Shown: one piece after another, positions 44,085-63,101 of the stretch
Numbering within the stretch: the first letter of the stretch is position 1
Layout: each line of letters starts with the position of its first letter
DNA from: an uncultured Chromatiaceae bacterium
GTDB taxonomy: Bacteria > Pseudomonadota > Gammaproteobacteria > Tenderiales > Tenderiaceae
NCBI GenBank assembly: GCA_947259785.1
Contig: CAMYNQ010000002.1
Location: 1-63,912 of the forward strand
DNA: 63,912 bases
Direction of reading: 5' to 3'
Translations under genes and position numbers: made by a program
Notes under the pieces: generated by a model
Told to the model about the DNA's origin: nothing
The model's database searches: none
Seen by the model: only the letters and a program-made list of their open reading frames with translations

Positions 44085-45581
44085 TCAATTCTCTACGGGG
44101 CACTCATGAGTCATCTCATAGTCGCCTTTGTCATTCAGGCTTTCAATCCGTACGGTGAACCCCCATAGGCGCGACAGGTGTTTTAGGGTTTCGCCGGTTT
44201 GCTCGTTTAATGGTCTTCTATTGTGGGTCTCGTAGCGCAGAGTCATTGATCTGTCGCCGCGCATGTCTACATTGTAGACCTGTAGGTTAGGTTCGCGGCT
44301 GCCGAGGTTGTAATGCTCTGAAAGGGCGTGGCGAATATGACGATAACCGTTGTCGTCGTGTATGGCGGATACCGTGAGTGTGTTTTCGTTGTCGTCATCC
44401 AATACCGAGAACAGCTTAAGGTTCCTGATAACGTTGGGTGACAGGTATTGCGAGATGAAGCTCTCATCCTTGAAATTACGCATGGCAAAGTCCAATACTT
44501 TTAGCCAGTCACCGCCGGCAATGTCAGGAAACCAGTGTTTATCTTCATCGGTTGGATGCTCGCAGATCCTTCTCAGATCCTGAAAGATATTAAAGCCAAG
44601 AGTGTAGGGGTTCAGGCCGCTATAAAATTGGCTGTCAAACGGTGGCTGATAAATGACATTGGTATGTGACTGGAGGAATTCCATCATAAAACCATCGTTT
44701 ACCAGGCCTTCGTCATAAAGCTTGTTGAGCAGGGTGTAATGCCAGAATGTGGCCCAGCCTTCATTCATCACCTGGGTTTGCCGTTGGGGATAAAAATATT
44801 GGGCAATCTTCCTTACGATGCGAACGATCTCACGTTGCCATGTTTCGAGGATGGGGGAGTTTTTCTCAATAAAGTAGAGCAGGTTTTCTTGTGGCTCTTC
44901 AGGCCATACCTTGGCCTTTTGCTCTGAACTGTCCTTCTCAGAACTTGGCAGTGTTCGCCATAGATCATTTACCTGTGATTGTAGGTAATCTTCACGTTCC
45001 CTTTGATTGCCTTCTTCACCGTGGAGGGAGACCTTTTGCTGGCGTTTATACCTGTCAACACCAAAGTTCATTAAGGCATGGCATGAATCGATAAGTTGCT
45101 CGACTTCCTCTGCGCCATAACGCTGTTCACATTTGGATACATAATTTTTTGCAAACAGTAGGTAGTCAACGATTGAGTCGGCGACAGTCCAAGATCTAAA
45201 TAAATAATTGTTTTTGAAAAATGAGTTGTGACCATATGAGGCATGGGCAATCACCAGTGCCTGCATGGGCATAGTATTTTCTTCCATCAGGTAGGCAATG
45301 CAGGGGTCTGAGTTAATGACTATTTCATAGGCCAGCCCCATATGACCGCGTTTATAGTTTTGTTCAACGCTTAAAAATTGTTTTCCGAATGACCAGTGAT
45401 GATAACCGACCGGCATGCCGACGGTCGAGTAGGCGTCCATCATTTGCTCTGCTGAGATAACCTCAATCTGGTTGGGATAGGTATCTAGGCCAAATTCCGC
45501 GGCGATTCTGGCTATCTCACGGTCATAGTCGAGCAGCAGGTCAAAGGTCCATTCCGAGGTTTCTGATATATATTTACTCAT
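44085..45581 (-). CDS. SpoVR family protein
   Basis: 498 residues matching the SpoVR/YcgB family: [58 protein letters not shown] and [18 protein letters not shown]. The family is tied to spore cortex formation in Bacillus and to stationary-phase or stress responses in Gram-negatives; its biochemistry is unknown. The start overlaps the yeaH-type stop by 4 bases, so the two are translationally coupled. Third gene of the prkA-yeaH-spoVR operon. Confidence 0.95.
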
Positions 45582-46843
45582 GATGCATTCTTTTCAAAAA
45601 GTCTTTTAAAGACGGGATATATCTCAGAAATTTCGGTGAGTTTCTGCATGGCAAAGTTTGGGCATGTCGCCGATACATTTTCATACTCGAACCATAGGTT
45701 GCCGATAGGTGTGTCTTCATTGATTTCGATGTAGGCATAGTATTGTAAAAACGGCATGATTGAATTGACCAGCAGGTCTCGGCAGACGGGCGAATCATCT
45801 GTCCAGTTGTCACCATCAGAGGCCTGTGCGGCATAGATATTCCACTCTGAGGTCGGGTAGCGCTGCTGGATGATGTCGCGCATCATTTTTAGGGCGCTGG
45901 AGACAACGGTGCCGCCGGTTTCGCGGGAATAAAAGAATTCCTCTTCATTCACCTCTTTGGCAATGGTGTGATGGCGGATAAAGACTAGTTCGATATGCTC
46001 ATATGAGCGGGTTAGAAACAAGTAGAGCAGGGTGAAAAAGCGCTTGGCGACATCTTTTTCGAATTCCCCCATCGAGCCTGATACATCCATAAGGCAAAAC
46101 ATAACGGCTTGGGTGGTGGGTACGGGTTCATCGATACGGTTGTTGTAACGCAGGTCAAAGGTATCGATGTAGGGGATTTTTTTTATTTTCGCCCTTAGCT
46201 CAGCGATTTCATCTTCTAGACGGCTTATCCGGCCCAAGTCTGGAGCCGCTGATGACTTTTCTTTTAATAAAGCCTCTTCAAGCGGTTTGATCTGATTACG
46301 GTATGGGCCAGATAGCGCGATTCTTCGCGCCAGAGAGCCTTTCATTGATCTGATAACGTTGATGTTTGATGGTGTGCCGCTGGTGGTGTAACCGGCACGC
46401 ACCTTCTTGAACTGCATTTCCTTGGCGAGCTGAGTTTTTATCATATTGGGCAATTCAAGATCTTCAAAGAAAAGGTCCATGAATTCTTCCCGTGACAGGG
46501 TGAAGCTAAACTCATCCTCTCCTTCGCCAGAATCGCTGGCTTGCTTGCCACCTTTTCCTGCACCTTCTTTGGGACGGTCGATAGAATCGCCGCGGGTAAA
46601 TTCTTTGTTGCCTGGGTATACGCCGTCTCTAACGCCACCCTGGCCGGTGCCAAAGGTGGGTTCGGAGATGTCTTTTGCGGGGATGTTTACACTTTCGCCA
46701 TGTTCCATATCGGCGATGCTGCGTTTAGCGACCGCTTCTTCAACGGCTTTTTTCAGGTGCCTTTTATAACGCCGAATAAATTTCTGGCGGTTAACCGCAC
46801 TTTTATTTTTACCGTTTACACGCCGGTCTATTATTTGGCTCAC
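45578..46843 (-). CDS. YeaH/YhbH family (DUF444) VWA-like protein
   Basis: 421 residues. The N-terminal basic segment ([21 protein letters not shown]) is followed by a linker and a VWA-like domain with MIDAS-type motif [18 protein letters not shown] and [14 protein letters not shown]. Always encoded with PrkA and SpoVR, it is thought to work with the PrkA kinase in stress adaptation. The gap to prkA is 37 bases. Confidence 0.94.
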
Positions 46844-46880
46844 TGTCCATCACCTTATGGGGTTGTGTGTGGCACTGGAT

Positions 46881-48803
46881 CTATGACGATTTCCGTGTTC
46901 TTAGATGCCATTCACACAGCAACCTTACCTGCTTAGGTGTGTAGCCTTTTGAGACCATTCTATCGACAAACTCTTTGTGTTTCTGTTGGTCCTCGGTTGA
47001 GGATTTAGCACTAAATGAAATGACCGGCAGAATATCTTCGGTGGTGGAGAACATCTTCTTCTCAATCACGCCGCGAATCTTTTCATAGCTGGTCCAAACC
47101 GGGTTTTTACCCTCATTGTTGGCACGTGCGCGTAAGGTGAAGTTGACAATCTCGTTTCTGAAATCCTTGGGATTACTAATGCCGGCCGGTTTTTCAATTT
47201 TTTCCAACTCGTCATTCAATGCTGCGCGGTCAAGCATTTCACCGGTGTCTGGGTCTCTGAATTCAGAATCCTGAATCCAGTAATCGGCATAGGTGACATA
47301 ACGATCAAAAACATTCTGACCATACTCGCTATATGATTCGAGGTAGGCAGTTTGAAGCTCTTTGGTAATGAACTCTGAATAATTGGTGGCCAGATAACCT
47401 TTCAGGAAGCCAATGTACTTATCTCTGATTTCAGGTGCGTACTGCTCTTGTTCTACCTGTTGTTCAAGGATGTAGAGCAAGTGAACAGGATTAGCCGCTA
47501 CTTCAGTGTGGTCATAGTTAAATACCTTTGACAAAATCTTGAATGCAAACCGGGTAGACAGCCCCGTCATGCCTTCGTCGGGACCGGCAGCATCCTTGTA
47601 TTCCTGTATCGACTTGGCTTTCGGGTCAATATCTTTTAGGTTTTCGCCGTCATAGATCCGCATTTTTGAGAATATGCTGGAATTCTCGGGTTCTACCAGA
47701 CGTGTCAGAGCAGCAAATTGCGCCATCATCTCCAGGGTGTCAGGTGCACATGGCGCATCTTTCAGCGAACTTTCCCTAAGCAGTTTTTCATAGATCTTTA
47801 CTTCTTCGGAAACACGTAGGCAGTAAGGCACCTTGACGATATAGATTCGATCAAGGAAGGCCTCATTGTTTTTGTTGTTTTTAAAAGAAGTCCATTCAGA
47901 TTCATTGGAATGCGCAAGAATAACGCCATTAAAAGGGATGGCAGGGAAGCCTTCCGTACCCTTATAGTTACATTCCTGAGTGGCGGTGAGCAGGGGGTGC
48001 AATACCTTGATAGGGGCTTTGAACATCTCCACGAACTCAAGCATGCCCTGGTTGGCCTGGCACAGGCCGCCTGAAAAACTATAAGCGTCAGGGTCATCCT
48101 GCGAATACTGCTCCAGCATTCTGATATCAACCTTGCCCACCAATGCTGAAATATCCTGGTTGTTTTCATCACCGGGTTCTGTTTTGGCAATACCAACCTG
48201 TTGCAATACCGATGGGGTTAGTTTTACGACTCTGAATTTAGATAGGTCACCATTGTGTTCATGCAGACGCTTCACAGCCCATGGTGACATGATGCCTGGC
48301 AAATAACGGCGTTCTATGCCGTAGTCTTCTTCGAGAATTTTGCCATCTTCATCTGGTGAAAACAGTCCCAGTGGCGACTCATTCACCGGCGAGCCCTTAA
48401 TGGCATAGAAGGGGATTTTTTCCATCAATGATTTTAGTTTTTCTGCCAACGACGATTTGCCCCCACCAACGGGGCCGAGCAGATAGAGGATCTGTTTCTT
48501 CTCTTCCAAGCCTTGAGCGGCATGTTTGTAGAAAGAAACAATTTGCTCAATGGTTTCTTCCATGCCGTAAAACTCTTTAAAGGCTGGATAGATTTTAATG
48601 ACCTTGTTAGAAAAGATTCGGCTGAGCCTGGGATCATCACGTGTATCGACAAGCTCAGGTTCGCCAATAGCCATTAGCATGCGTTCCGCTGCTGTTGCAT
48701 ATACAGAGGGGTCTGACTTACAGAGATCCAGATACTCCTGGAGACTCATCTCATCCTCTTTGGCTTCCTCGTATCGTTCTTGAAACTGATTGAAGATACT
48801 CAT
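46881..48803 (-). CDS. PrkA family AAA+ serine protein kinase (YeaG-like)
   Basis: 640 residues. The PrkA AAA domain has Walker A GPVGGGKSSLAEKL (about 110-123), followed by FNGVILAHSNESEW, and a C-terminal PrkA kinase-like region (about 390-630). E. coli YeaG is a kinase needed for nitrogen-starvation survival. This first gene of a prkA-yeaH-spoVR operon runs divergently from the sigma54-driven cluster at 49372, which fits a nitrogen-stress neighbourhood. Confidence 0.95.
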   Translation of the reverse strand: MSIFNQFQERYEEAKEDEMSLQEYLDLCKSDPSVYATAAERMLMAIGEPELVDTRDDPRLSRIFSNKVIKIYPAFKEFYGMEETIEQIVSFYKHAAQGLEEKKQILYLLGPVGGGKSSLAEKLKSLMEKIPFYAIKGSPVNESPLGLFSPDEDGKILEEDYGIERRYLPGIMSPWAVKRLHEHNGDLSKFRVVKLTPSVLQQVGIAKTEPGDENNQDISALVGKVDIRMLEQYSQDDPDAYSFSGGLCQANQGMLEFVEMFKAPIKVLHPLLTATQECNYKGTEGFPAIPFNGVILAHSNESEWTSFKNNKNNEAFLDRIYIVKVPYCLRVSEEVKIYEKLLRESSLKDAPCAPDTLEMMAQFAALTRLVEPENSSIFSKMRIYDGENLKDIDPKAKSIQEYKDAAGPDEGMTGLSTRFAFKILSKVFNYDHTEVAANPVHLLYILEQQVEQEQYAPEIRDKYIGFLKGYLATNYSEFITKELQTAYLESYSEYGQNVFDRYVTYADYWIQDSEFRDPDTGEMLDRAALNDELEKIEKPAGISNPKDFRNEIVNFTLRARANNEGKNPVWTSYEKIRGVIEKKMFSTTEDILPVISFSAKSSTEDQQKHKEFVDRMVSKGYTPKQVRLLCEWHLRTRKSS

Positions 48804-49314
48804 TGCCGCTCACCTCGCTAAGTTGTTCTGTCCCTAAATCTATAGTCTGTAATTGCACCTTATGACAGTTCTCAACTAATTTGGCTTTCCATGTTATCTG
48901 TGGATAGGGAAAGCATGTTGTATCCAAACCAATGCACGGTTGAGAGCAATCGCAGGATTTTCAAAAATCTATAATATTTATCGGCACACTTCATATAAGT
49001 CGTTAATGCCAATATATCTACTAAATCAGAGTGTCGTCTCGCTAATAGAGTTCAATCTAATTTTTGTGGTGTTTTTGTTGCGACCGCTGTTGGGCTTTCT
49101 GTTTTGAATAGAGTTACGCAGATGTGGGTATATCTGAATTGTTTATAAACGTAGTTTTAGTCTGAAAAAATATATATCAGAAGTGTCTTTTGTGTGCATA
49201 ATTTTAAATACCTGCGTTTGGTTGGTGCATACATACATTGTGCTGCGATGATAGTTACATGATTTTAAATTAAAACATTTTTAAATCATCTACTTATAAA
49301 AGATATCAGTGTGC
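48804..49314. other. Divergent intergenic region between prkA and the sigma54 cluster
   Basis: About 510 bases, AT-rich. It holds an imperfect AT palindrome (TGATTTTAAAT ... TTTTTAAATCA, 49259-49289) just upstream of the sigma54 promoter, which could be a bend or activator/IHF-like site. I found no clear NtrC dyad, only half-sites such as TGCACC (48856) and GGTGCA (49225). Confidence 0.4.
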
Positions 49315-49330
49315 TGGCACAGCTGTTGCA
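49315..49330 (+). promoter_or_regulatory. Sigma54 promoter of the flavoprotein/cytochrome operon
   Basis: TGGCACAGCTGTTGCA matches the -24/-12 consensus TGGYRYRNNNNTTGCW at every position, with GG-N10-GC spacing. The expected start is about 49341, leaving a 31-base leader before the ATG at 49372 and thus no room for an ANTAR leader. Confidence 0.88.
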
Positions 49331-49371
49331 ATTCATTAAATCAAACACTTTGGTGAGATGGTTAAACAACG

Positions 49372-51360
49372 ATGCCAATTACGAAACAACAATATCAGTA
49401 CCCGGCTTCTGAGTTGAATAATGTCTGTGTAGTGGTTGTTGGCACTGGGCCGGTTGGTATGCGCACCGTACAGGAGTTGTTTCGACTAAAACCAGATCAA
49501 AAAATTGTGATTTACGGAGATGAACCATGGGAGCCCTATAACCGCGTTCGTTTGACGCAGATGCTGGCAGGTCATTCTACCTGGGCTGATATCTTTCAAT
49601 CCTTAAAACTGCCTGAGCAGGCCAGCATAGAAAAGCGTTACAACTGTTCCGTGGTTGGCATTGATCCTGAGGCTAAAAAGGTGACTGATGCCGCAGGTGG
49701 CTCGCAAAATTATTCAAAATTAGTACTGGCTTTAGGTTCCAGGCCTCACATACCAAATATAACCGGTGTTGGTCTCGATGGTGTTTTTACGCTCCGTAAT
49801 ATGTCTGATGTTCAGGGGCTGTTGGCGCGGCGCGTCCGCAGCCGGAAGACGTTGGTCATTGGTGGTGGTCTGTTGGGCATAGAAGCCGCCAAGGCTTTGC
49901 AGCGCAGTCATGTTGAGGTCTCGATTATTGAGCACGGCAGTCGTTTAATGGAGCGGCAGCTAGATGATGCTGCCTCCGAATTCATTCGCGAATATGTACT
50001 GGAATTGGGTATTAAGGTCTATCTAGCTGATGGCGTACAACAGATATTGGGTGAGCGTCTGGTTCAGGGGGTGCGTTTGCGCAGTGGCCGTGAACTCGAT
50101 TTCGATACAATAGTCATTGCCAGCGGCATTATTCCCAACACCAAACTGGCACGTGAGTCTGGTATTGCCGTTGGCCGGGGCATTCGTGTTGATGACACAC
50201 TGCAAACCTCGGTACCTGATATCTATGCTGTTGGTGAGTGCACGGAACATCGAGGTCAAATATATGGACTGGTGGCCCCAGGACTTGAACAGGCCTCTGT
50301 TGCCGCCCACCACATTTTGGCTAAAAAGGCTGTTTACAAAGGCAGCATTGCGGCAGCCCACCTTAAAGTCGTTGGCAAAAGTGTGTTCAGCATTGGTTGT
50401 GTCAGTGATGTAGATATTGGCAATCTTGATGAGCAGATTTCATATCGTTCCACAGCGAATGATAGCTATAGAAAATTAGTCATTCGCCATAACAAGCTCG
50501 TGGGAGCTGTCGCGATTGGTGAATGGAATGAAGTTGGTCGTATTCAGGAGGCTGTTGTTTCAAACCGCCATGTTTGGCCTTGGCACAAATTACGCTTTAA
50601 ACGAACTGGGGAACTATGGCCAGCACAGGTCAGTGATGATATTCGTCGGTGGCCGGTTTCTGCCGCCGTTTGCAACTGCACTGGCGTGACTCGTGGTGCG
50701 TTGAGTGCGGCAGTGGCTGGTGGTTGTCAAACAGTGGCACAACTGGCTGAGTGTACGGGGGCTTCGACAGTGTGTGGCACATGTAAGCCTAAGTTGGCAC
50801 AACTGCTTGGCCAGCAGGTAGAGCCAGTTGAGCAGAAGGCTATGAGGCCACTAATGATCATGTCAATTGCGGCACTGCTTGTGGCTGGTTTGACTGCGCT
50901 AGTTGAGCCAATAACAAATGCAAAAACAGTGCAGGGTGGCTGGCATGTGAGTCAATTGTGGCATGACAGCTGGGCCAAGCAGGTAACCGGTTTTGGTCTG
51001 TTGGGTGTTACGGCTATTGCCTTGCTGATCTCGTTGAGAAAACGGTTATCTAAATTTGCGCTATTTGATTTTTCATATTGGCGTGTCCTGCACGCAGGGC
51101 TGGGGCTGGTTACGCTGTTGCTGTTATTGCTGCACACAGGCTTGCGTTTTGGTGACAACCTCAATTTTTATCTGATGTTCTGTTTTGTCGGTATTGTAAT
51201 TGTCGGGACGGTCGCTGGGGTTGTTACTGCGTATGAGGGGGGCAAGACCAGTCTGGTGATTGGCCGCTGGCGTCGTTGCTCTACTTGGGCACATATTTTT
51301 CTATTTTGGCCTTTGCCGGTGTTGCTTGGCTTTCACATTCTTAAGTCGTATTACTACTAG
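49372..51360 (+). CDS. NirB-like FAD/BFD oxidoreductase fused to a membrane cytochrome-b-like domain
   Basis: 662 residues. The N-terminal pyridine-nucleotide-disulfide oxidoreductase part has FAD motif VVGTGPVG (23-30), YNRVRLTQML, LVLALGSRPHIPNI, a second nucleotide motif VIGGGLLGIEAAK and DIYAVGECTEH. It resembles the first half of the nitrite reductase large subunit NirB. A BFD-like [2Fe-2S] domain follows with Cys434, Cys436, Cys468 and Cys471 (CNC...CGTC). The siroheme/4Fe4S reductase half of NirB is absent. Instead residues about 490-662 form roughly five transmembrane helices with histidines (LHAGLG, LLHTGLRF, WAHIFLFW, FHILK) that could ligate heme b. It probably moves electrons between NAD(P)H or a quinone and the adjacent multiheme cytochrome. 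Driven by a sigma54 promoter; the cytochrome gene follows after 8 bases. Confidence 0.8.
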   Translation: MPITKQQYQYPASELNNVCVVVVGTGPVGMRTVQELFRLKPDQKIVIYGDEPWEPYNRVRLTQMLAGHSTWADIFQSLKLPEQASIEKRYNCSVVGIDPEAKKVTDAAGGSQNYSKLVLALGSRPHIPNITGVGLDGVFTLRNMSDVQGLLARRVRSRKTLVIGGGLLGIEAAKALQRSHVEVSIIEHGSRLMERQLDDAASEFIREYVLELGIKVYLADGVQQILGERLVQGVRLRSGRELDFDTIVIASGIIPNTKLARESGIAVGRGIRVDDTLQTSVPDIYAVGECTEHRGQIYGLVAPGLEQASVAAHHILAKKAVYKGSIAAAHLKVVGKSVFSIGCVSDVDIGNLDEQISYRSTANDSYRKLVIRHNKLVGAVAIGEWNEVGRIQEAVVSNRHVWPWHKLRFKRTGELWPAQVSDDIRRWPVSAAVCNCTGVTRGALSAAVAGGCQTVAQLAECTGASTVCGTCKPKLAQLLGQQVEPVEQKAMRPLMIMSIAALLVAGLTALVEPITNAKTVQGGWHVSQLWHDSWAKQVTGFGLLGVTAIALLISLRKRLSKFALFDFSYWRVLHAGLGLVTLLLLLLHTGLRFGDNLNFYLMFCFVGIVIVGTVAGVVTAYEGGKTSLVIGRWRRCSTWAHIFLFWPLPVLLGFHILKSYYY

Positions 51361-51368
51361 GTTGCACC

Positions 51369-52715
51369 ATGAAGCATGCAAATATGAAATGGTGGATCTT
51401 GTGGTTGTTCAGTAGTCTTAGCTTGGCTGGTTATTTTGCTTATGCACTGGTTATGGGCGAAGACAAAACGGTTTACCTACCCGGTGATAGTAGTCATGGG
51501 CATTATCAAATCGAAATGGCATGTAATAGTTGCCACGGCGAAGCCTTTGATGACCAGGAGGTCATGCAAACGGCCTGTGTCAATTGTCATGCTGATGAAC
51601 TTAAGAGGGTGGATGACTCACACCCAAAACGTAAATTTACCGACCCGCGCAACGCAGATCGCGTTGCTATTTTGGATGCACGCTATTGCATCACTTGTCA
51701 CAGTGAGCATGACCAGGAAATCACTGCTGACATGGGCGTGACCCTGGCAAGTGATTTCTGTGCTTTATGCCACGAAAATATTGCTACTGATCGTGTTAGC
51801 CATAAGCTTTTACCATTTGATGGTTGTGCTAGTGCCGGCTGCCACAATTATCACGATAACAAAGCGCTTTACGAAGACTTCCTTGTTAAACATGCCAACG
51901 AACCAGTTGTCATGGCTGAGCCAAAAGTCGCTGAACGTAATTATTCTGACTGGGTGGTAAAGGTAGAGGGCAGGAAACCAACATCGCTGACACGGAGTGA
52001 TGTCGATGCCCCTTCAGAGATAGAGCTTGATCCGTTGGAAATGAGTCGTTGGCAGGGATCTGCTCATGCTCGCGGCGGTATTAACTGTTCAGGTTGTCAT
52101 GTTGATGACAATAAGTGGCTAAGAAAACCTGGATTAGCCATTTGCCAAACCTGTCATAACTCGGAAACAGAGGGTTTTAAACAGGGAAAACATGGCATGC
52201 GCATTGCCGTTGGTCTCGATCCGCTGAGGCCAAAAGATGCGCGTCTGGCCATGAATAAAGATGTCCACAACAGTCAGTTAGCTTGTAATAGCTGTCATGA
52301 GGGCCATGCCTATTATATTAAAAAAGCCGCAGCTGAAGCTTGTCTTGCTTGTCATGATGATGGGCATAGCAAGGCATATCTAAGATCTAAACACAATATT
52401 CTTTGGCAGCAGGAGATCGAGGGTTTAATTGATCCAGGTCAGGGTGTCTCCTGTGCTACCTGCCACATGCCTCGCCAACGGGTCCGTAGTCAAGGTCATG
52501 AGCGGGTAATGGTTAGTCATAATCAAAACCTCAATCTGCGTCCCAATGAAAAGATGCTGCGTGGTGTTTGTATGAATTGTCATGGCTATGAATTTTCGGT
52601 CAATGCATTGGCCGATGTTGAATTAGTAAAAACAAATTTCAATGGTAAACCGAAAGTGATGATTGAAAGCGTCAAGATGGCGCTGAAACGCGAACGGACT
52701 GAGAAATCTGAGTAG
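51369..52715 (+). CDS. Membrane-anchored undecaheme cytochrome c
   Basis: 448 residues. An N-terminal anchor (about 8-29) precedes ten CxxCH heme sites (Cys52, 70, 107, 131, 240, 259, 306, 325, 362 and 401) and one CX4CH site (Cys153-Cys158-His159), eleven in all. The C-terminal half, with DVHNSQLACNSCH, SKAYLRSKHNILWQQE and GVSCATCHMPR, resembles periplasmic multiheme reductases of the NrfA/HAO superfamily, but no CxxCK site is present. It could be a nitrogen-oxide reductase or an electron carrier. Its operon partner is the membrane flavoprotein upstream; the substrate is inferred only from context. Confidence 0.85.
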   Translation: MKHANMKWWILWLFSSLSLAGYFAYALVMGEDKTVYLPGDSSHGHYQIEMACNSCHGEAFDDQEVMQTACVNCHADELKRVDDSHPKRKFTDPRNADRVAILDARYCITCHSEHDQEITADMGVTLASDFCALCHENIATDRVSHKLLPFDGCASAGCHNYHDNKALYEDFLVKHANEPVVMAEPKVAERNYSDWVVKVEGRKPTSLTRSDVDAPSEIELDPLEMSRWQGSAHARGGINCSGCHVDDNKWLRKPGLAICQTCHNSETEGFKQGKHGMRIAVGLDPLRPKDARLAMNKDVHNSQLACNSCHEGHAYYIKKAAAEACLACHDDGHSKAYLRSKHNILWQQEIEGLIDPGQGVSCATCHMPRQRVRSQGHERVMVSHNQNLNLRPNEKMLRGVCMNCHGYEFSVNALADVELVKTNFNGKPKVMIESVKMALKRERTEKSE

Positions 52716-52758
52716 TAAATCCAAATCGACGTTTAATTTAATCCACCATAGGAGAAGT

Positions 52759-53346
52759 ATGATGAAATATGTAAATAAGGCGATAGCCGTCGTGACTCTG
52801 GCAAGTTCAACGCTTTTACTGAGCGCTTGTGGTGACGAGCCGTCAACCGCAGCGCCTGTTGGTGTGTCGCCGCAAAAGATGTCTGATGCGCTGCATGCGG
52901 TAATGGAAGCCGATCGCGCCATCTATACCAAAAAGGTCATTGCCAGATTAGTGAAGCAAGAAAAACTGATTAAGGCCAGCGAACACTGGGAAGATGAAAA
53001 GGCTTTGCCACTGCCGGCGCAAATGTTCCGCATGGGCTCTGAACGTGTGGCTGAAAATACTTCTGACTTCAGTTACTCGTTGATATCAGCCTGGCCAATC
53101 AATAAGCAGAATGAACCCAAGACCGACGCTGAGAAAGAGGGCTTGAAGTATATCGAGGATAATCCGGGTAAAAATTTTTATAAGACTGAAAGTTTAGGTG
53201 GGCAGGCCTATTTCACTGCGATTTACCCTGATGTGGCGGTCGCTGCGCCCTGTGCCGATTGCCATAACGATCACAAAGATTCACCTAAGACTGATTTCAA
53301 AATTGGTGACACCATGGGCGGTGTAGTGATTCGCATACCTTTATAA
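52759..53346 (+). CDS. DUF3365 (Tll0287-like) heme lipoprotein
   Basis: 195 residues with a lipoprotein signal (LLLSAC, lipid Cys near 25) and a DUF3365 domain: ADRAIYTKKVIARL, LPLPAQMFRMGSE, SLISAWPINKQNEPKTDAEKEGL and a c-type heme site CADCHN near the end. Such domains are PAS-like heme sensors or small electron carriers. SD GGAGAAG precedes the start. It follows the undecaheme gene by 43 bases and ends at an intrinsic terminator, so it completes a three-gene redox operon. Confidence 0.85.
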   Translation: MMKYVNKAIAVVTLASSTLLLSACGDEPSTAAPVGVSPQKMSDALHAVMEADRAIYTKKVIARLVKQEKLIKASEHWEDEKALPLPAQMFRMGSERVAENTSDFSYSLISAWPINKQNEPKTDAEKEGLKYIEDNPGKNFYKTESLGGQAYFTAIYPDVAVAAPCADCHNDHKDSPKTDFKIGDTMGGVVIRIPL

Positions 53347-53368
53347 ATCTAAACTGGGCGTTATAAAC

Positions 53369-53403
53369 ATCCCTAGGCTGAGTAAATCTGTCTAGGGATT
53401 TTT
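53369..53403 (+). terminator. Intrinsic terminator after the redox operon
   Basis: A perfect 8-bp stem ATCCCTAG / CTAGGGAT with a 15-base loop and a T run. It ends the flavoprotein-cytochrome-DUF3365 transcript. Confidence 0.9.
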
Positions 53404-53525
53404 GTGTGCACAGATGATGGATATACGCGTTAATTTGGTGCGACAGCAGAATTTAATTATTTGTAAATAGATGTTGTTGTATATATCTTGTTGTTTAGTA
53501 AAAGAAAATTAAAAAAATTTTACAG

Positions 53526-53541
53526 TGGAATGGTTTTTGCG
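53526..53541 (+). promoter_or_regulatory. Candidate sigma54 promoter of the ANTAR regulator
   Basis: TGGAATGGTTTTTGCG keeps GG-N10-GC and TTGC but differs from TGGYRYRNNNNTTGCW at two positions (A for Y, G for W). The expected start is about 53552, upstream of the ATG at 53594. It is weaker than the other three sites; a partial NtrC-like half-site lies near 53407. Confidence 0.5.
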
Positions 53542-53593
53542 ATGGGTTTATATAGGTAACTAGATAAAGTAAAAGTGGAATAGCAGGTTTACT

Positions 53594-54172
53594 ATGAATA
53601 TAAGACTGATGCTGGTCTATCAATCCAGACAACGACAGCAGCTTTTGCAACAGGCTGCAGACGAAAGTGGCTATCAGGTGGCAGTATGTGTTGCGCTGGA
53701 TGCTGATCTTCAACAAACGCTGCAGGCAGCTCAGGCAGATGTCATCATCTTTGATATTGATCAACCTGATCAACAATTGTTGGCCCGCACGCATAACCTG
53801 AATCAGCTGCATGCCATACCGATTATCATGTTTGCTGAACGGGGCGACCAAAAAACAATCATAGAGGCGGTTAATGCCGGGGTCACTTCTTATGTGGTTG
53901 ATGGCCTGCAGCCTAAGCGTCTGCGGCCGATTGTAGAAGCAGCCATGGCCCGTTTTAAGGCCTTTCAATCGTTACGCCAAGAGTTGCAGGAGACCAAGAG
54001 CAAACTGGAAGACCGTAAACATATCGACAAGGCCAAGGGCATCCTGATCCAGCAAAAAAACATCAGTGAGGATCAGGCTTATCAGGCGCTACGTAAACTG
54101 GCCATGGATAGGAACATCAAGCTTGGTGACGCGGCCTGTAATGTCATTGCCATGGCTGATATTTTTAAATGA
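53594..54172 (+). CDS. ANTAR-domain response regulator (NasT-like antiterminator)
   Basis: 192 residues. The N-terminal receiver-like domain (1-120) lacks the paired acidic residues of true receivers (LVYQSRQRQQ in their place) but has FDIDQPD at the phospho-site position. A coiled linker (125-140) leads to a C-terminal ANTAR domain: LEDRKHIDKAKGILIQQKNISEDQAYQALRKLAMDRN. ANTAR proteins bind tandem hexaloop hairpins and prevent terminator formation. NasT is held by the nitrate sensor NasS until nitrate is present. No nasS is adjacent, so the partner is elsewhere or different. Its targets are the leaders at 54364 and 55966. Confidence 0.92.
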   Translation: MNIRLMLVYQSRQRQQLLQQAADESGYQVAVCVALDADLQQTLQAAQADVIIFDIDQPDQQLLARTHNLNQLHAIPIIMFAERGDQKTIIEAVNAGVTSYVVDGLQPKRLRPIVEAAMARFKAFQSLRQELQETKSKLEDRKHIDKAKGILIQQKNISEDQAYQALRKLAMDRNIKLGDAACNVIAMADIFK

Positions 54173-54205
54173 TCGCCCTGTGTGCAATATGTTTTTGCGA
54201 CAAAG

Positions 54206-54254
54206 TGCACGGCAATAGTGCAGTAAGTTTTTAATGTTGCACTTTGATGGCGCT
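54206..54254 (+). promoter_or_regulatory. Pair of NtrC-like enhancer sites
   Basis: Site 1, TGCACGGCAATAGTGCA (54206-54222), is a perfect TGCAC-N7-GTGCA dyad. Site 2, TGCACTTTGATGGCGCT (54238-54254), is a weaker copy. Their centres lie 32 bp apart and at about -140 and -108 from the predicted sigma54 start (54354), the same placement as the two strong NtrC sites of E. coli glnAp2. Confidence 0.75.
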
Positions 54255-54327
54255 CTCATTTCTTCGTAAACAAAAAAATTTCTATCGAGGCGATTAATAT
54301 TAACTAAAAACAACTAGATAGAAAAAG

Positions 54328-54343
54328 TGGTACGGGCTTTGCT
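54328..54343 (+). promoter_or_regulatory. Sigma54 promoter of the porin gene
   Basis: TGGTACGGGCTTTGCT fits TGGYRYRNNNNTTGCW fully, with GG-N10-GC. The predicted start at about 54354 lies 10 bases before the first ANTAR hairpin, so the leader RNA begins right at the regulatory structure. Confidence 0.88.
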
Positions 54344-54363
54344 ATCTAACTGATTATGAACTT

Positions 54364-54463
54364 GCTGGCTAATGGTGGCTAGCGGGGAATTAAAAAATAC
54401 TTTGGACAACGACGTCCACTCGTTTGGCAGCTCCCTAACTGCCAGCGTGTGGGCGTTTTTTTT
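54364..54463 (+). promoter_or_regulatory. ANTAR antitermination leader of the porin gene
   Basis: Hairpin P1 is GCTGGCT-[AATGGT]-GGCTAGC (54364-54383) and P2 is GGAC-[AACGAC]-GTCC (54404-54417). Both loops are six bases with A at position 1 and G at position 4, the ANTAR-binding signature. The P2 right arm is shared with the 5' arm of the terminator (CGTCCACTCG, 54413-54422, pairing with CGTGTGGGCG, 54446-54455), followed by eight T. Protein-stabilised P2 therefore excludes the terminator. Confidence 0.9.
54413..54463 (+). terminator. Regulated intrinsic terminator before the porin gene
   Basis: The outer stem CGTCCACTCG / CGTGTGGGCG (one mismatch, one G-T) carries an inner GGCAG / CTGCC stem and is followed by T8 (54456-54463). 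It is mutually exclusive with ANTAR hairpin P2. It would stop the transcript 25 bases before the porin ATG in the absence of the antiterminator. Confidence 0.9.
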
Positions 54464-54488
54464 GTTGTAATTTTGAGGAAGGACTTAG

Positions 54489-55718
54489 ATGAAAACAGTA
54501 ATGGGCTTTAAGAAAAAAATCACTCCTGCACTATTAGTGGCATCAGCTTTGGCGGGCAGCAATGTTTCGACAGCAAGTGCCGCAACACTGGCTGAAGCCA
54601 TATCGGACGGTAAGGCAGGGCTGGATTTGCGCTACCGTTTTGAAACGGTTGATCAAGACGGTGCTAGCAATGATGCAACAGCTTCAACGCTGAAAACTCG
54701 TCTTAACTATGCCACTGGTGATTACAACGATTTCAGTGCCTTTATCGAATTTGATGACGTCATGGCCCTGGGTGATGTTGAATATAATGATGCAACCGGG
54801 TCTGCGACGGCCCAAACCAGCTATCCAGTAGTGGCTGACCCAGAAGGTACCGAAGTAAATCAGGCCAAAATCAGTTACAAGGGCGTTGATGACACAACCA
54901 TGACCTTGGGACGTCAGCGGGTAATTTTTGATAATGCCCGTTTTATTGGCAACGTTGGCTGGCGTCAAAATGAGCAGACCTATGATGCCTTCACGATAGC
55001 CAATACTTCACTGGCAGATACCAGCATCGTTTATGGTTATGTCACTAACGTCAATCGCATCTTTGGTGAAGCCTCGACAAAGGGTGATATTGATACAGAA
55101 ACTCACCTTGTGAATATCGCCTACAGCGGTCTTGAAGCCGGCAAGCTGACTGGTTATGGTTATTTTTTAGATCTACTTGATTCACCCGCGGCATCGAATT
55201 CAACGCTTGGCCTTCGTTTTGCCGGTGGTACAAAAGTAAGCGAGGCCGCTAAGGTGCTCTACACCCTAGAGTTCGCTAACCAGTCTGATTACTCGGATGG
55301 TGCCTCAACGATTGATGCCGATTACAGTTTGATCGAGGTAGGTGGAAAGGCCGGTGGTGTAACCGCCAAGCTGGGTGTTGAAACTCTGAGTGGCGACGGA
55401 ACCTATGCTTTTAGTACACCACTGGCCACGGCGCATGCCTTTAATGGCTGGGCTGATAAATTTTTAGGCACACCGGCCAATGGTCTGGTTGATGCCTATG
55501 TCAGTGTTGGCGGCAAGGTTTCGGGTGTGAAGCTGGTGGCTGTGTATCATGATTTTACTTCCGATACTGGCAGCACCGACTACGGCACAGAGTTTGATTT
55601 GTTGGCGGCCAAGAAGATTGGCAACTATACCGTGTTAGCTAAATACGCCAGTTACTCAGCTGATAGCTTTGCCACTGACACAGACAAGCTATGGTTGATG
55701 GGTCAGGCTAAATTCTAA
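54489..55718 (+). CDS. Outer-membrane porin (alginate-export/OprD-like barrel)
   Basis: 409 residues. A signal peptide (cleavage near TASA-A, about 32) is followed by a barrel with LRYRFETVDQDGA, LKTRLNYATGDYNDFSAFIEFDDV, VNQAKISYKG and TLGRQRVIFDNARFIGNVGWRQNEQTYDA, a pattern of the alginate_exp-type porin family. It ends in a terminal aromatic (LMGQAKF). It is preceded by the NtrC-sigma54 promoter and ANTAR leader, so its likely role is uptake of nitrate or another N source across the outer membrane. That substrate is inferred from regulation, not sequence. Confidence 0.85.
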   Translation: MKTVMGFKKKITPALLVASALAGSNVSTASAATLAEAISDGKAGLDLRYRFETVDQDGASNDATASTLKTRLNYATGDYNDFSAFIEFDDVMALGDVEYNDATGSATAQTSYPVVADPEGTEVNQAKISYKGVDDTTMTLGRQRVIFDNARFIGNVGWRQNEQTYDAFTIANTSLADTSIVYGYVTNVNRIFGEASTKGDIDTETHLVNIAYSGLEAGKLTGYGYFLDLLDSPAASNSTLGLRFAGGTKVSEAAKVLYTLEFANQSDYSDGASTIDADYSLIEVGGKAGGVTAKLGVETLSGDGTYAFSTPLATAHAFNGWADKFLGTPANGLVDAYVSVGGKVSGVKLVAVYHDFTSDTGSTDYGTEFDLLAAKKIGNYTVLAKYASYSADSFATDTDKLWLMGQAKF

Positions 55719-55740
55719 GCCGTTAGCACCAATCAACCTG

Positions 55741-55823
55741 GGCCGGTATGGATGCCTCATGTTATGCGCATGCTTAAAGCAAATGCTGCGCATGATTATG
55801 AGGCAATCCCTACCGGCCTTTTT
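55741..55823 (+). terminator. Long nested hairpin terminator after the porin gene
   Basis: A 78-base hairpin: outer GGCCGGTA / TACCGGCC, middle GGATGCCTCAT / ATGAGGC-A-ATCC, inner ATGCGCA / TGCGCAT, then five T. It is much longer than an ordinary terminator and may also protect the porin mRNA 3' end. Confidence 0.85.
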
Positions 55824-55931
55824 CTTTCTGCTCAAATATAGTGCTAAGCATTTCCCTTAAAGCAGGGCCCTAGCTGGTTCATAATTATAAAGTTCTTTTT
55901 AAATAACAAGTTAGTGATGTTTTGTTGTTAT

Positions 55932-55947
55932 TGGCATAGTGGTTGCA
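55932..55947 (+). promoter_or_regulatory. Sigma54 promoter of the nitrate transport operon
   Basis: TGGCATAGTGGTTGCA matches TGGYRYRNNNNTTGCW at every position with GG-N10-GC spacing. The predicted start is about 55958. I did not find a clean NtrC dyad in the 100 bases upstream, which is occupied by the porin terminator. Confidence 0.88.
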
Positions 55948-55965
55948 TTAGTTTATTCAAGACAA

Positions 55966-56127
55966 GGCCCAACGTAGGGTTAGCTAAACAAAACAACGGT
56001 TAGGCTCCAACGGCGGACACTAAACCGGAAAATAAAAAACAGTCGCGGCCAGAGTAGGGCCTGAACAGGACAACGACGTCCATCGGCAACACGCTATCAG
56101 TGTGTCTGCGGGTGGGCGTTTTTTTTT
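55966..56127 (+). promoter_or_regulatory. Extended ANTAR leader of the nitrate transport operon
   Basis: Four hairpins with A1/G4 loops. H1 is GGCCC-[AACGTA]-GGGTT (55966-55981). H2 is a longer stem closed by CGGTT/AACCG and ending TCC-[AACGGC]-GGA (55997-56027). H3 is GGCC-[AGAGTAG]-GGCC (56047-56061, a seven-base loop). H4 is GGAC-[AACGAC]-GTCC (56068-56081), identical in stem and loop to P2 of the porin leader. The H4 right arm overlaps the terminator 5' arm. H3+H4 is the likely antiterminator pair; H1+H2 look like a second ANTAR pair. Confidence 0.85.
56077..56127 (+). terminator. Regulated intrinsic terminator before the nitrate-binding protein gene
   Basis: CGTCCATC (56077-56084) pairs with GGGTGGGCG (56110-56118) including G-T pairs. 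An inner GCA..ACAC / GTGT..TGC stem is present, followed by nine T (56119-56127). It excludes H4 of the ANTAR leader. Confidence 0.88.
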
Positions 56128-56155
56128 GATTTGTAAACGTAAACGGAGTGGAACA

Positions 56156-57574
56156 ATGAAGTTGGAAACACAAACACAGATGAACCTGACTTGCCGGGGT
56201 TTTATGAAAAAGGCATCGGCTGCCGTGCTGTCAGCAATGATGGTGATGGGCGGTTCTGTTATTTTGCCAGGCAGTGCAGCCTATGCGATTGATGATCTGG
56301 AAAAGGAGGATCTGAAAATTGGTTTTATCAAACTGACAGACATGGCGCCCTTGGCGATTGCCTATGAAAAGGGTTTCTTCGAAGATGAAGGTCTGTACGT
56401 CACTCTGGAAGCGCAGGCCAACTGGAAGGTGTTGCTTGACCGTGTTATCGATGGCGAGCTTGACGGTGCCCACATGCTGGCCGGTCAACCGTTGGGTGCA
56501 ACCATTGGTTTTGGTACCCAGGATCACATCATCACTGCCTTCTCCATGGACCTGAATGGTAATGCCATCACTGTTTCCAACAAGGTCTGGGGCGAGATGA
56601 AAAAACACATTCCGCATGAAGGCGGCAAACCCGTTCACCCCATCAAGGCTGATGCACTGAAACCTGTGATTGAGCAATACAAAGACGCAGGCAAGCCTTT
56701 CAAGATGGGCATGGTGTTCCCAGTCTCTACCCATAACTATGAGCTTCGTTACTGGTTGGCTGCGGGTGGTATCCACCCAGGTTATTACGCACCACACAAG
56801 GGCGATACCTCAGGCACCATCGATGCAGAAGCGTTGTTGTCTGTAACGCCACCACCACAAATGCCATCGACTATGGAGGCCGGCACGATTGATGGATACT
56901 GCGTCGGTGAACCCTGGAACCAGCAGGCTGTATTTAAGGGCATAGGTGTGCCGGTGGTGACCGATTATGAGATCTGGAAAGACAACCCTGAAAAAGTATT
57001 TGGTGTCAGCAAGAAGTGGGCAGATAAAAACCCCAACACGCATATTGCTGTCGTCAAGGCCATGATCCGTGCTGCCAAATGGTTGGATGACAATAACAAC
57101 GCCAATCGTCCTGAGGCGGTTAAAATTCTGTCACAGCCAAACTATGTGGGTGCTGACTACGACGTAATCGCCAACTCCATGACCGGTACTTTTGAGTATG
57201 AGAAGGGTGACAAGCGTGCGGTGCCAGACTTCAATGTCTTCTTTCGTTATAACGCCACCTATCCCTATTACTCAGATGCAATCTGGTACCTGACGCAGAT
57301 GCGTCGTTGGGGTCAGGTGGCGGATGAGAAGCCGGATAGCTGGTTCATGGATATCGCCAAGAAAGTTTATCGTCCAGACATTTATACAATCGCTGCGAAA
57401 GAACTGATTGCCGAAGGCAAGATTGCTGCAAGCGAGTTTCCGGACTTTGCCAAGGAAGATGGTTTTCGTGCGCCACAAACGCACTTCATCGATGGCATTA
57501 CCTATGACGGTAAAAAACCGAATGACTATCTGAAGAAATTCAATATTGGCCTGAAGGGTAGTGAAAAGATCTAA
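56156..57574 (+). CDS. nrtA: Nitrate ABC transporter substrate-binding protein (NrtA-like)
   Basis: 472 residues from the ATG at 56156. A GTG at 56102 would start inside the leader terminator and is rejected. The signal-type N-terminus (about residues 20-45, ending AYA) is followed by the NrtA/CmpA/NasF fold: [100 protein letters not shown]. The family binds nitrate (or bicarbonate in CmpA) in the periplasm. The ANTAR and sigma54 control supports nitrate. Confidence 0.93.
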
Positions 57575-57645
57575 AGCAAGTTCTCCCCCTCCCGTTAGGA
57601 GGGGGAATTAAAGCCTAACCCCAACACTTGAAGCAGGGTGAAGTA

Positions 57646-58665
57646 ATGAAAACCAAAATTATCAACACGCTCGAAATGACTGGTCTCTCATGGCTGGTGC
57701 CCGTGGTGCGTTTGAGCAGCGGAGAAAATCCACGTGACCAACTCAACGAAATGATGACAGTGATTGGTCTGCCGCTGATCGCCATCGCCGCCTTTTTGTT
57801 TATCTGGGCCGGTGCCGCTGCCCAGGTTAAAACCAGCCTGGGTGAACTGCCGGGTCCGAGTCAGGTATGGCAACAGGCCCAAGGCTTGTATGAAGAACAC
57901 CTGGCCGAGCGTGAAAAAGAGGCGGCCTTTTATGAACGCCAGGAACAACGCAATGCCAAGAAACTGGCCAAGAACCCTGATGCTGAAATCAAGGTGCGTG
58001 ATTATACCGGTCGCGACACGTTTATCGACCAAATATGGACCAGCTTGGGCACTGTCTTTACAGGATTCTTTTTTGGCGCACTGATTGCCATTCCCATCGG
58101 TGTCGCCTGTGGTCTGAGCCAAAAACTCTATGGCGCCATCAGTCCACTGGTGCAGATATTCAAACCCGTATCACCACTGGCCTGGCTCCCCATCGTGACC
58201 ATGATTGTTAGTGCTGTTTACATCACTGACGATCCTATGTTCGAAAAGGCCTTTATTACCTCGGCCATCACGGTGACGCTGTGTTCGCTGTGGCCAACGC
58301 TGATTAACACGGCTGTCGCTGTCGCCTCAATCGACAAAGACTTGATCAATGTTGGCCGTGTGATTCGTCTGCATTGGTTAACTCAGGTATTCAAAATTGC
58401 CATCCCCGCTGCACTGCCAATGATCTTTACTGGCCTGCGTATCTCACTGGGTATCGGCTGGATGGTATTGATTGCCGCTGAGATGCTGGCGCAAAACCCA
58501 GGCCTGGGCAAGTTCGTCTGGGATGAATTCCAGAATGGCAGTTCCAATTCCCTGGGCCGCATCATGGTCGCGGTGATTAGCATAGGCCTGATTGGTTTCT
58601 TGTTGGACTGGATGATGATGACACTGCAAAAAGTGTTGTCACATGACAAGACTGCAGGTGCTTAA
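57646..58665 (+). CDS. nrtB: Nitrate ABC transporter permease (NrtB-like)
   Basis: 339 residues from the ATG at 57646; a TTG at 57628 is less likely. A first TM (about 32-50) is followed by a charged segment of about 60 residues (EEHLAEREKEAAFYERQEQRNAKKLAKNPDAEIK), then the BPD_transp_1 core: SLGTVFTGFFFGALIAIPIGVACGL, KPVSPLAWLPIVTM, and GLRISLGIGWMVLIAAEMLAQNPGLGKFVWDEFQNG with the EAA-loop-like signature. It pairs with NrtA and the ATPase downstream. The gap after nrtA is 71 bases. Confidence 0.93.
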   Translation: MKTKIINTLEMTGLSWLVPVVRLSSGENPRDQLNEMMTVIGLPLIAIAAFLFIWAGAAAQVKTSLGELPGPSQVWQQAQGLYEEHLAEREKEAAFYERQEQRNAKKLAKNPDAEIKVRDYTGRDTFIDQIWTSLGTVFTGFFFGALIAIPIGVACGLSQKLYGAISPLVQIFKPVSPLAWLPIVTMIVSAVYITDDPMFEKAFITSAITVTLCSLWPTLINTAVAVASIDKDLINVGRVIRLHWLTQVFKIAIPAALPMIFTGLRISLGIGWMVLIAAEMLAQNPGLGKFVWDEFQNGSSNSLGRIMVAVISIGLIGFLLDWMMMTLQKVLSHDKTAGA

Positions 58666-58700
58666 TTGCCTAAGGGTAAAAGTGTCAATTAAAAAAATAT

Positions 58701-58725
58701 GTAGTGCGGATTTCAGCCGCCCTAC
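58701..58725. repeat. REP-like palindrome between nrtB and the ATPase gene
   Basis: Arms GTAGTGCGG / CCGCCCTAC with TTTCAG between them, one mismatch. The GTAG-GCGG...CCGC-CTAC layout is common in proteobacterial intergenic repeats. It may adjust the relative amounts of permease and ATPase mRNA. Confidence 0.55.
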
Positions 58726-58756
58726 AAGATGATCAAAGAGATTAGAGGGCAACACA

Positions 58757-59620
58757 ATGTCAGTAGTACAAATGTTGAAAACAGAAGCAATAGTTGATGA
58801 GGCTATGGACAAGCCAAGAGAACACTACCAGCGAGCGTTCCTTGATCTCAGCGGAATCTCAATTGAGTTCCCCACCAAAAAGGGGCCATTCAAAGCGCTG
58901 GACAACGTCAACCTGAAGATTGCCAAGGGTGAGTTTGTTTCCATTATTGGTCACTCCGGTTGCGGTAAATCAACGGTTTTGAACATCGTTGCCGGTCTTT
59001 ACAAGGCGACAACCGGTGGTGTGATTCTTAACGGTAAAGAGGTGGACGAACCCGGGCCTGATCGGGCAGTAGTGTTTCAGAATCATTCACTGTTGCCATG
59101 GCTGACCTGTTATCAGAATGTTGAGATTGCGGTGAAGGCCATCTTTAAGGGCAAAAAGAGCAAACTTGAGATGAAGCAGTGGATTGAACACAATCTGCAC
59201 CTTGTGCACATGGATCATGCCATGCACAAATATCCGGCTGAAATTTCTGGCGGCATGAAACAGCGTATCGGTATTGCCCGGGCATTGGCGATGGAGCCAA
59301 CGGTACTGCTGATGGATGAGCCTTTTGGTGCCCTGGACGCCCTGACCCGTGCCCATCTGCAAGATTCGGTGATGGAGATTCAGGCTGATCTTAATAGCAC
59401 CGTCATCATGATTACCCATGATGTCGATGAGTCTGTGTTGTTGTCAGACAAAATTGTGATGATGACAAATGGCCCGGCGGCAACGGTTGGCGAGGTATTG
59501 AACATCGAGTTGGAACGGCCGCGTAATCGGTTGGAACTGGCAGATGACCCGCAATACAACAAATATCGCGCCGAGGTGTTGAAGTTTCTTTATGAGCGTC
59601 AACGTCGACCACAGGAGTAG
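58757..59620 (+). CDS. nrtD: Nitrate ABC transporter ATP-binding protein (NrtD/NasD-like)
   Basis: 287 residues. Walker A GHSGCGKST, Q-loop FQNHSLLPWLT, signature SGGMKQRIGIARALAMEP, Walker B VLLMDEPFGALD and H-loop MITHDVDESVLLSDKI are all present. It lacks the NrtA-like C-terminal sensor domain found in cyanobacterial NrtC, so one ATPase gene probably serves as a homodimer. It powers nitrate import with NrtA and NrtB, and is the last gene of the operon. Confidence 0.93.
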   Translation: MSVVQMLKTEAIVDEAMDKPREHYQRAFLDLSGISIEFPTKKGPFKALDNVNLKIAKGEFVSIIGHSGCGKSTVLNIVAGLYKATTGGVILNGKEVDEPGPDRAVVFQNHSLLPWLTCYQNVEIAVKAIFKGKKSKLEMKQWIEHNLHLVHMDHAMHKYPAEISGGMKQRIGIARALAMEPTVLLMDEPFGALDALTRAHLQDSVMEIQADLNSTVIMITHDVDESVLLSDKIVMMTNGPAATVGEVLNIELERPRNRLELADDPQYNKYRAEVLKFLYERQRRPQE

Positions 59621-59647
59621 TGGGTGATTTAAATTCTGTAGTCGCCC

Positions 59648-60905: not shown

Positions 60906-61123
60906 ATTTAATAAACACCGTTATCAATCGCATCATGATCACCAATATTGGGTTTGAAGTTTCTTCGAGAAAGGTGATTAAGTCACATACAACTGCCTTG
61001 CTCCTATTTATATTAAAGGAAATAGCCAAAAACGTATAAGTCAAAACAGGGCTATGTAAAGAAATATGCAGGTGAAAAGGTATGGAAACTAAATTTCTAA
61101 CTTAGCAACGAGGAAAACTTCAA

Positions 61124-61684
61124 ATGTATAAAAAGCTATTGGCAATCACTGTGAGTTCGTTGGCACTAAACATGAGTGCGAGTGCTGAAGAAAAGGACTG
61201 GAACTGGTTTGCGGGTGCCGATGACGACTATGTGATGGAATCGACGGCGTCAATTTTGGTGGGCAGTATGTCACCCACAGACGGTATCTCAGGCAATATC
61301 ACGGGTATTGAACTTGCGTTTAACTGCCCACTGCTGCAACCTCCAGCAAATAAAATACGTCAACAACTAAGCTATGCCCAATACGATGAGGACGGTACAG
61401 AAGTGACTAGCATTGAGATCAATCCTCACTATGTCACTGAGATTAGTCCCGGTCTATCTATTGGCGCTGGTCCAGGGCTAGGCTACGTTTCCGTTGATAA
61501 TGCCGTCAAAGATACCAGTTTGTTCGCACTACAAGTTGGTGGCAGCTTGCATTACAAGGTATCAGATCCTTTGTTTTTAGGGGCCGATGTGCGCTATCAA
61601 TTGACAAATAACAAGAACCTTGGCGGATCAATACAAGGTATGGATAACTGGGGCGTTGCGCTCAAAGCTGGAGTTAATTTCTAA
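61124..61684 (+). CDS. Small outer-membrane beta-barrel protein
   Basis: 186 residues with a signal peptide (cleavage near SASA-E, 22). The rest alternates polar and hydrophobic residues with glycine turns ([31 protein letters not shown]) and ends in a C-terminal Phe (ALKAGVNF), typical of an eight-stranded OMP barrel (OMP_b-brl type). The function is unknown. SD GAGGAAAA precedes it. The next gene overlaps its stop by one base. Confidence 0.75.
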
Positions 61685-61890: not shown

Positions 61891-61976
61891 GATTAAGTAC
61901 CACCTGGTCATTACTGAATGGCAAGTTTGTTTGATGTCACCGTTCATTTCGTCAATCTACTAAAGAGGACATTACA

Positions 61977-62336: not shown

Positions 62337-62464
62337 GCGCCGAAGCTTTATATTTTGTTCTGCCAAGGCTGGTCAGGGGTTCCCACTCGGCGAAACCATA
62401 ACCGTTAATGAAACAGCCTTGGCTAAATAAACCAAATCAGATTCATCAAGTCAGGAGAATTAAT

Positions 62465-63061: not shown

Positions 63062-63101
63062 CTATTTTGTTAACACGCTAGCAAGATACTCTTGAAACTT
63101 T

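Follow-up and report, generated by a model that had tools for sequence, protein, structure and literature searches.

What could a bacterium do with one half of a nitrite reductase that is fused to a membrane domain and encoded next to a cytochrome with eleven hemes? This question is raised by a locus of an uncultured Chromatiaceae bacterium (Gammaproteobacteria; family Tenderiaceae in GTDB), which was analysed within a stretch of 63,912 nucleotides, here called the window. The window lies on contig C2 (CAMYNQ010000002.1) of a 3.36 Mb draft genome (296 contigs, 95 % complete). An original prediction, made from the letters of the window alone, had described two adjacent genes, a flavoprotein (FLAV) and a multiheme cytochrome (CYT), as a candidate new module for nitrogen-oxide (N-oxide) reduction and had proposed a periplasmic, assimilatory reduction of nitrite or hydroxylamine. 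Together with a third gene, a lipoprotein-type heme protein, the pair constitutes a conserved and apparently unnamed module, whose architecture is likely to serve NADH-driven electron export to the periplasm. The parts of the module are the following:

49315..49330, plus strand: sigma54-type promoter TGGCAC-AGCTG-TTGCA, a perfect site (TGGCAC-N5-TTGCA) read in the sequence, about 42 bases 5' of the flavoprotein ATG
49372..51360, plus strand: gene 1 (FLAV), flavoprotein of 662 amino acids (aa) composed of a NirB half, a BFD domain and a membrane domain
49426..50562, plus strand: FAD/NADH domain of FLAV, cytosolic, aa 19-397 (Pfam PF07992, PF00070, PF18267; Foldseek)
50668..50811, plus strand: BFD [2Fe-2S] domain of FLAV, aa 433-480, ligands C434, C436, C468 and C471 (PF04324; cysteine conservation)
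50842..51354, plus strand: domain of five transmembrane (TM) helices of FLAV, aa 491-661, probable diheme cytochrome b with His 574/588 and 641/655 (histidine conservation; weak Pfam matches in homologues; helices in the model)
51369..52715, plus strand: gene 2 (CYT), membrane-anchored 11-heme c-type cytochrome of 448 aa
51825..51875, plus strand: CX4CH heme site in CYT, motif CxxxxCHNYHDNKALYE, aa 153-169 (alignment)
52759..53346, plus strand: gene 3, lipoprotein-type Tll0287-like (DUF3365, sCache_heme) monoheme protein of 195 aa (PF11845, E 1.1e-20)

A conserved unit of three genes

Only 8 bases separate the stop codon of FLAV from the start of CYT, and 43 bases lie between CYT and gene 3. 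The unit comprises three genes and is larger than the pair first reported, gene 3 being part of it. Of 369 genomes sampled from the class, 27 contain a CYT homologue. A profile search with the membrane domain alone (E < 1e-20) picked out precisely these 27 and gave no match in the 342 others, which bears out the co-occurrence of flavoprotein fusion and cytochrome expected in the original prediction. Named records with CYT homologues include Catenovulum agarivorans, Hahella ganghwensis, Motiliproteus, Filomicrobium, Jannaschia pagri and Lentisphaerales bins, and the trio is found across Gammaproteobacteria, Alphaproteobacteria and Lentisphaerota. In total 45 distinct neighbourhoods were read, a number which includes close relatives and therefore loci that are not fully independent. 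In 43 of them the gene for the flavoprotein or its membrane domain immediately precedes CYT, and in 42 the Tll0287 gene immediately follows it; of the exceptions, at least two (L089 on the 5' side, L050 on the 3' side) lie where the contig ends. Furthermore, the pairwise distances of the three protein families co-vary (Mantel r 0.49, 0.58 and 0.71), and none of 999 permutations gave values as high. Occurrence in the same genomes, fixed neighbourhoods and co-varying distances argue for a real and obligate module, and its recurrence at more than 40 loci rules out a chance arrangement.

A second complete trio is present in the same genome on contig C76 (L014, 6880-10902), found, like everything reported here on the host genome outside the window, by targeted searches. 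The identity is 42 % for the flavoprotein, 43-45 % for the cytochrome and 64 % for the third gene, and neither nitrate genes nor a globin nor a sigma54-like site lie near this copy. Neither the entire fusion nor the entire cytochrome is covered by any Pfam or NCBIfam model at a score over its cut-off, and the open-licence PMC papers that were searched contained no description of the module.

The flavoprotein

FLAV contains the Pfam domains Pyr_redox_2 (20-312, E 5.6e-57), Rubredoxin_C (330-397) and Fer2_BFD (433-480). In comparison with the NirB model TIGR02374 it matches only model positions 1-469 of 794 (385 bits, cut-off 578), and a profile scan gave no match to the siroheme/[4Fe-4S] half NIR_SIR (PF01077) at this locus. 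FLAV thus shares the FAD/NADH and BFD [2Fe-2S] domains with NirB, whereas the siroheme half is replaced by about 170 C-terminal residues (491-661) forming five TM helices according to both sequence and structure model. This is the composition that had been predicted. Each of the four cysteine ligands of the BFD cluster is kept in 40-41 of the 43 flavoproteins compared.

The membrane domain carries two pairs of histidines, His574 and His588 on one helix and His641 and His655 on another, each of which is kept in 42-43 of 43 flavoproteins. Diheme cytochromes b have this spacing of 14 residues. Because four near-invariant histidines show this spacing, the domain is, judged from its sequence, probably a diheme cytochrome b. 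Homologous membrane domains gave weak Pfam matches to DUF4405 (5 of 16, best 2e-5) and Ferric_reduct (3 of 16, 9e-3) and also to Ni_hydr_CYTB; none of these three families, all of them families of diheme b cytochromes, matched the membrane domain of FLAV in the window, and a profile of the domain found zero matches among PDB sequences. The positively charged residues RKR556-558 and RWRR at about 631-635 agree with an N-terminus in the cytosol. Foldseek searches with the FLAV model returned exclusively NADH reductases of the BphA4/TodA/CoADR type and are uninformative on the membrane part. FLAV resembles transmembrane flavocytochromes of the NOX, ferric-reductase and cytochrome b561 types in that a cytosolic FAD/NAD(P)H domain is joined to a membrane domain whose two histidine pairs, with a spacing of about 14 residues, could hold two b hemes in a stack. 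However, its FAD domain belongs to the NirB (Pyr_redox) type and is followed by a BFD cluster, its proposed acceptor is a partner cytochrome with eleven hemes, and the sequence match is weak.

A variant protein of 863 aa in genome G292 (L098, 7833-10424) consists of two cNMP-binding domains, a BFD domain, an FNR-type FAD/NAD reductase and, as in FLAV, the five-TM domain. The NirB-type NADH domain has here been exchanged for an unrelated reductase while BFD and membrane domain were retained, which suggests that the cytosolic part serves to oxidise NAD(P)H. The cytochrome of G292 is located on a different contig from the variant flavoprotein.

The eleven-heme cytochrome

CYT possesses a single N-terminal TM helix (10-28) and eleven heme motifs, ten CxxCH and one CX4CH at C153, each of them kept in 43-44 of 45 homologues, so that the predicted membrane-anchored undecaheme c-type cytochrome is confirmed. 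Its most conserved stretch is GCHNYHDNKALYE around the CX4CH heme, identical in 16 of 16 aligned homologues, and this invariant stretch is the best candidate for a special site of the protein.

The original prediction had also noted segments resembling NrfA and HAO. Local profile matches do exist to NrfA (213-274, E 1e-8), octaheme nitrite reductase (353-423, E 8e-7) and an HAO-like protein (308-393, E 9e-8), each over one short heme stretch, and these stretches fit no single fold. MtrA matches the CYT profile about as strongly; the chain concerned (PDB 6r2q) is labelled cystathionine beta-synthase in the match table, and we take it to be an MtrA chain. Since the likeness to NrfA and HAO is only local and no stronger than that to MtrA, it has to be regarded as unspecific. 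No end-to-end similarity to NrfA, octaheme nitrite reductase or HAO was found in the profile comparison. Moreover, CYT differs from these enzymes in its eleven hemes, in the CX4CH site and in the absence of a CxxCK catalytic heme motif, every motif ending in CH. In NrfA itself CxxCK is usual, not universal.

The best NCBIfam match of CYT is TIGR03508, the DmsE/MtrA decaheme class (49 bits, cut-off 192). With these cytochromes CYT shares the character of a periplasmic multiheme chain, but it has eleven hemes and an inner-membrane anchor, and its recurrent neighbours include no MtrB-type partner. Twelve conserved spare histidines are available for the eleven hemes. Because NrfA, too, contains an unligated catalytic histidine, this count is compatible with a pure carrier and with an enzyme alike.

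The third gene

The product of gene 3 is a stand-alone member of PF11845 (75 bits, gathering score 24.1), and its CxxCH motif is kept in 41 of 41 homologues. The only cysteines of the protein are those of the lipobox and of CxxCH (two); for Tll0287 an axial cysteine was reported, to which none in the window protein could correspond. Proteins of the sCache_heme type are heme-bearing Cache domains, the signalling forms of which bind NO tightly (PMC12889525, preprint). A second gene for a Tll0287/DUF3365 heme protein (217 aa, E 1.6e-27) is found at 62408-63061, 9 kb from gene 3 and outside the module.

Nitrogen context and regulation

The original prediction placed the locus beside nitrate uptake genes and under a sigma54 promoter, and both statements are correct for the window. 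Downstream of gene 3 a NasT-like regulator and NrtABC genes follow:

53594..54172, plus strand: NasT-like response regulator with ANTAR domain (PF03861, PF00072)
54489..55718, plus strand: outer-membrane porin of the Alginate_exp/Opr type (profile matches)
56156..57574, plus strand: NrtA-like nitrate-binding protein (PF13379, E 1e-101)
57646..58665, plus strand: NrtB-like permease (TIGR01183 ntrB, E 2.7e-43, under the curated cut-off)
58757..59620, plus strand: NrtC/D-like ATPase, an open reading frame (ORF) named from position and similarity, which recurs with NrtAB at other loci

Nitrate or nitrite genes (NasT, NrtA, NrtB, NrtC, NirB or NasA) occur in the fetched stretch at 18 of the 45 loci. 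A globin gene (PF00042 or PF01152) is present at 24, mostly just 3' of gene 3, and a small monoheme cytochrome c often precedes it. Nitrate or nitrite genes, a globin or both flank the module at 33 loci, and both kinds do so at 9. As a given nitrate locus is expected within 10 kb with a chance below 1 % from position alone (a rough estimate based on genome size), its proximity is not accidental. In addition, a sigma54-like site stands out 5' of the flavoprotein gene (p<0.05 versus shuffles) in 18 of 41 loci, where about 2 would be expected. The recurrent neighbour clusters comprise no consistent metal or sulfur neighbours, and with N-oxide or globin genes at 33 of 45 loci the pair is not a component mainly of sulfur or metal operons. 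The link of the module to N-oxide handling is well supported by this gene context. In the Bradyrhizobium narK-bjgb-flp-nasC operon, a flavoprotein and a globin detoxify NO made by nitrate assimilation (PMC4724949). This is the closest functional precedent, since it unites a flavoprotein and a single-domain globin with nitrate assimilation under NasT regulation; however, Flp is described as a cytoplasmic protein acting on NasC and the globin, and the operon has neither membrane hemes nor a multiheme cytochrome.

The module genomes had been expected to lack nirBD. Instead, contig C67 of the same genome encodes full-length NirB (960 bits), NirD and NasA together, a complete nirBD/nas system, and 22 of 27 module genomes, versus 144 of 342 others, have a NirB that passes the cut-off (Fisher p 8e-5, a value that ignores relatedness). 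This positive association means that the module travels with NirB and is no replacement of it. A NasA-like protein was found in 24 of 29 module genomes. Apart from NasA, the nas locus on C67 (L015, 4211-8452) encodes another molybdopterin oxidoreductase together with a 4Fe-4S/DmsC fusion, an arrangement resembling a quinol-linked nitrate reductase, and an NnrS gene is situated at the end of this contig.

Other features of the window

Adjoining the module and divergent from it, three genes on the minus strand (44085-48803) resemble the set of SpoVR/YcgB, YeaH and YeaG (PrkA). The yeaG gene of E. coli responds to nitrogen starvation. A minus-strand ORF of 3425 aa (28386-38663) ends in an OmpA-like membrane domain at its C-terminus (E 6e-6) and possibly encodes a giant surface protein. 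The approximately 1.5 kb 3' of NrtC (59621-61123) is devoid of ORFs of at least 120 aa. An Rfam scan of 48780-63912 gave a single sub-threshold match, to a miRNA family (MIR6145, E 4e-4), directly 3' of the porin gene at 55743-55817; it is taken as chance, the sequence being probably a terminator-like hairpin.

Proposed function

In the mechanism that we propose, cytosolic NADH would be oxidised at the FAD of FLAV, and the electrons would pass via the [2Fe-2S] cluster of the BFD domain to two b hemes stacked through the inner membrane. These hemes would be ligated by His574 and His641 on the cytosolic side and by His588 and His655 on the periplasmic side and would deliver electrons to the anchored periplasmic eleven-heme cytochrome, which may be the reductase itself or a mere carrier. 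The sCache_heme lipoprotein may act as redox partner or sensor. CymA, NapC and NrfH likewise pass electrons from the inner membrane to multiheme cytochromes of the periplasm, but they obtain them from quinol, whereas the entry of this module is an NADH flavoprotein fused to the membrane domain.

The module would operate beside cytosolic assimilation by NasA and NirBD; in many species a cytosolic globin and a small cytochrome c would accompany it as well. The role that we consider most likely would be to supply periplasmic reducing power for the clearance of NO or nitrite arising from nitrate use. This complete proposal, electron export serving the periplasmic handling of reactive N-oxides, for which we infer the b hemes, the direction of flow and the acceptor, is put forward tentatively, with a little less than even confidence. 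Several observations weigh against it. At 12 of the 45 loci neither nitrate genes nor a globin are found, several of these contigs being short, and the window's own locus is without a globin. Globins are cytosolic and therefore do not prove a periplasmic NO target. The stand-alone sCache_heme member examined binds NO weakly and is thought to be redox-active (PMC12889525, preprint). The AlphaFold2 model of CYT, based on 16 sequences, is poor (pLDDT 55), and a vacant heme site is not identifiable in it. Finally, the module occurs in G020 (96 % complete) and G189 (98 %), two genomes with neither NirB nor a close NasA, and hence has no strict tie to nitrate assimilation.

The 12 loci without nitrate or globin neighbours, like the second copy on C76 and the resemblance of CYT to the broad DmsE/MtrA class, would suit a more general function in the periplasm, such as redox supply or the disposal of electrons (peroxide, thiols, metals or NADH balance being examples), with a nitrogen link that is merely regulatory or positional. 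We consider this rather unlikely, because nitrate or globin genes at most loci and the frequent sigma54-like sites lie well above chance and because metals and sulfur have no consistent representatives among the recurrent clusters. It is also unlikely, somewhat more so, that the flavocytochrome b and CYT form an NADH-driven complex which itself reduces periplasmic NO, nitrite or hydroxylamine. CYT would then represent a new class of multiheme N-oxide reductases with the active heme at CX4CHNYHDN, coupling nitrate assimilation to N-oxide removal.

Electrons could also be imported or donated within the cytosol, FLAV being a membrane-bound donor to NasA or a globin in the manner of NasB/NasC, with b hemes and CYT as a connection to the quinone pool or the periplasm. 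Proteins with a NirB half and BFD domain donate NADH electrons to NasA in other nas systems, and most module genomes contain a NasA-like protein. Furthermore, the Bradyrhizobium Flp is needed for NasC and for NO defence (PMC4724949). However, a periplasmic cytochrome with eleven hemes would be superfluous for this purpose, yet no genome with the fusion lacks it; some module genomes have no close NasA, and at four loci a separate ferredoxin-type reductase is encoded near the globin or downstream. Such a role is improbable.

Still more doubtful is the assimilatory route to ammonium of the original prediction, with CYT as periplasmic nitrite or hydroxylamine reductase in place of NirBD: the NirB-derived electron entry, the local matches to NrfA, octaheme nitrite reductase and HAO and the nitrate uptake genes speak for it, but the same genome has complete NirB, NirD and NasA, module and NirB are positively associated, and the matches are single heme stretches, equalled by MtrA and lacking CxxCK. 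Of the new N-oxide module proposed there, the obligate pairing, the N-oxide context and the apparent novelty stand, and the assimilatory chain is not supported. Extracellular electron transfer of the MtrCAB type was rejected, as the nearby porin is of the Opr type and the recurrent neighbours include no MtrB-type barrel.

Significance

NADH-driven electron export coupled to N-oxide handling is directly testable, since the trio is well conserved and present in the cultured Catenovulum agarivorans, Hahella ganghwensis and Jannaschia pagri. If it is true, many marine bacteria would have a direct route from NADH to a periplasmic multiheme cytochrome which bypasses the quinones and is tied to nitrate use. 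The electron-entry half of NirB would have been recruited onto a heme wire in the membrane, and some stand-alone sCache_heme proteins would be assigned a function. Nitrate assimilation would thereby be connected to the handling of nitrosative stress.

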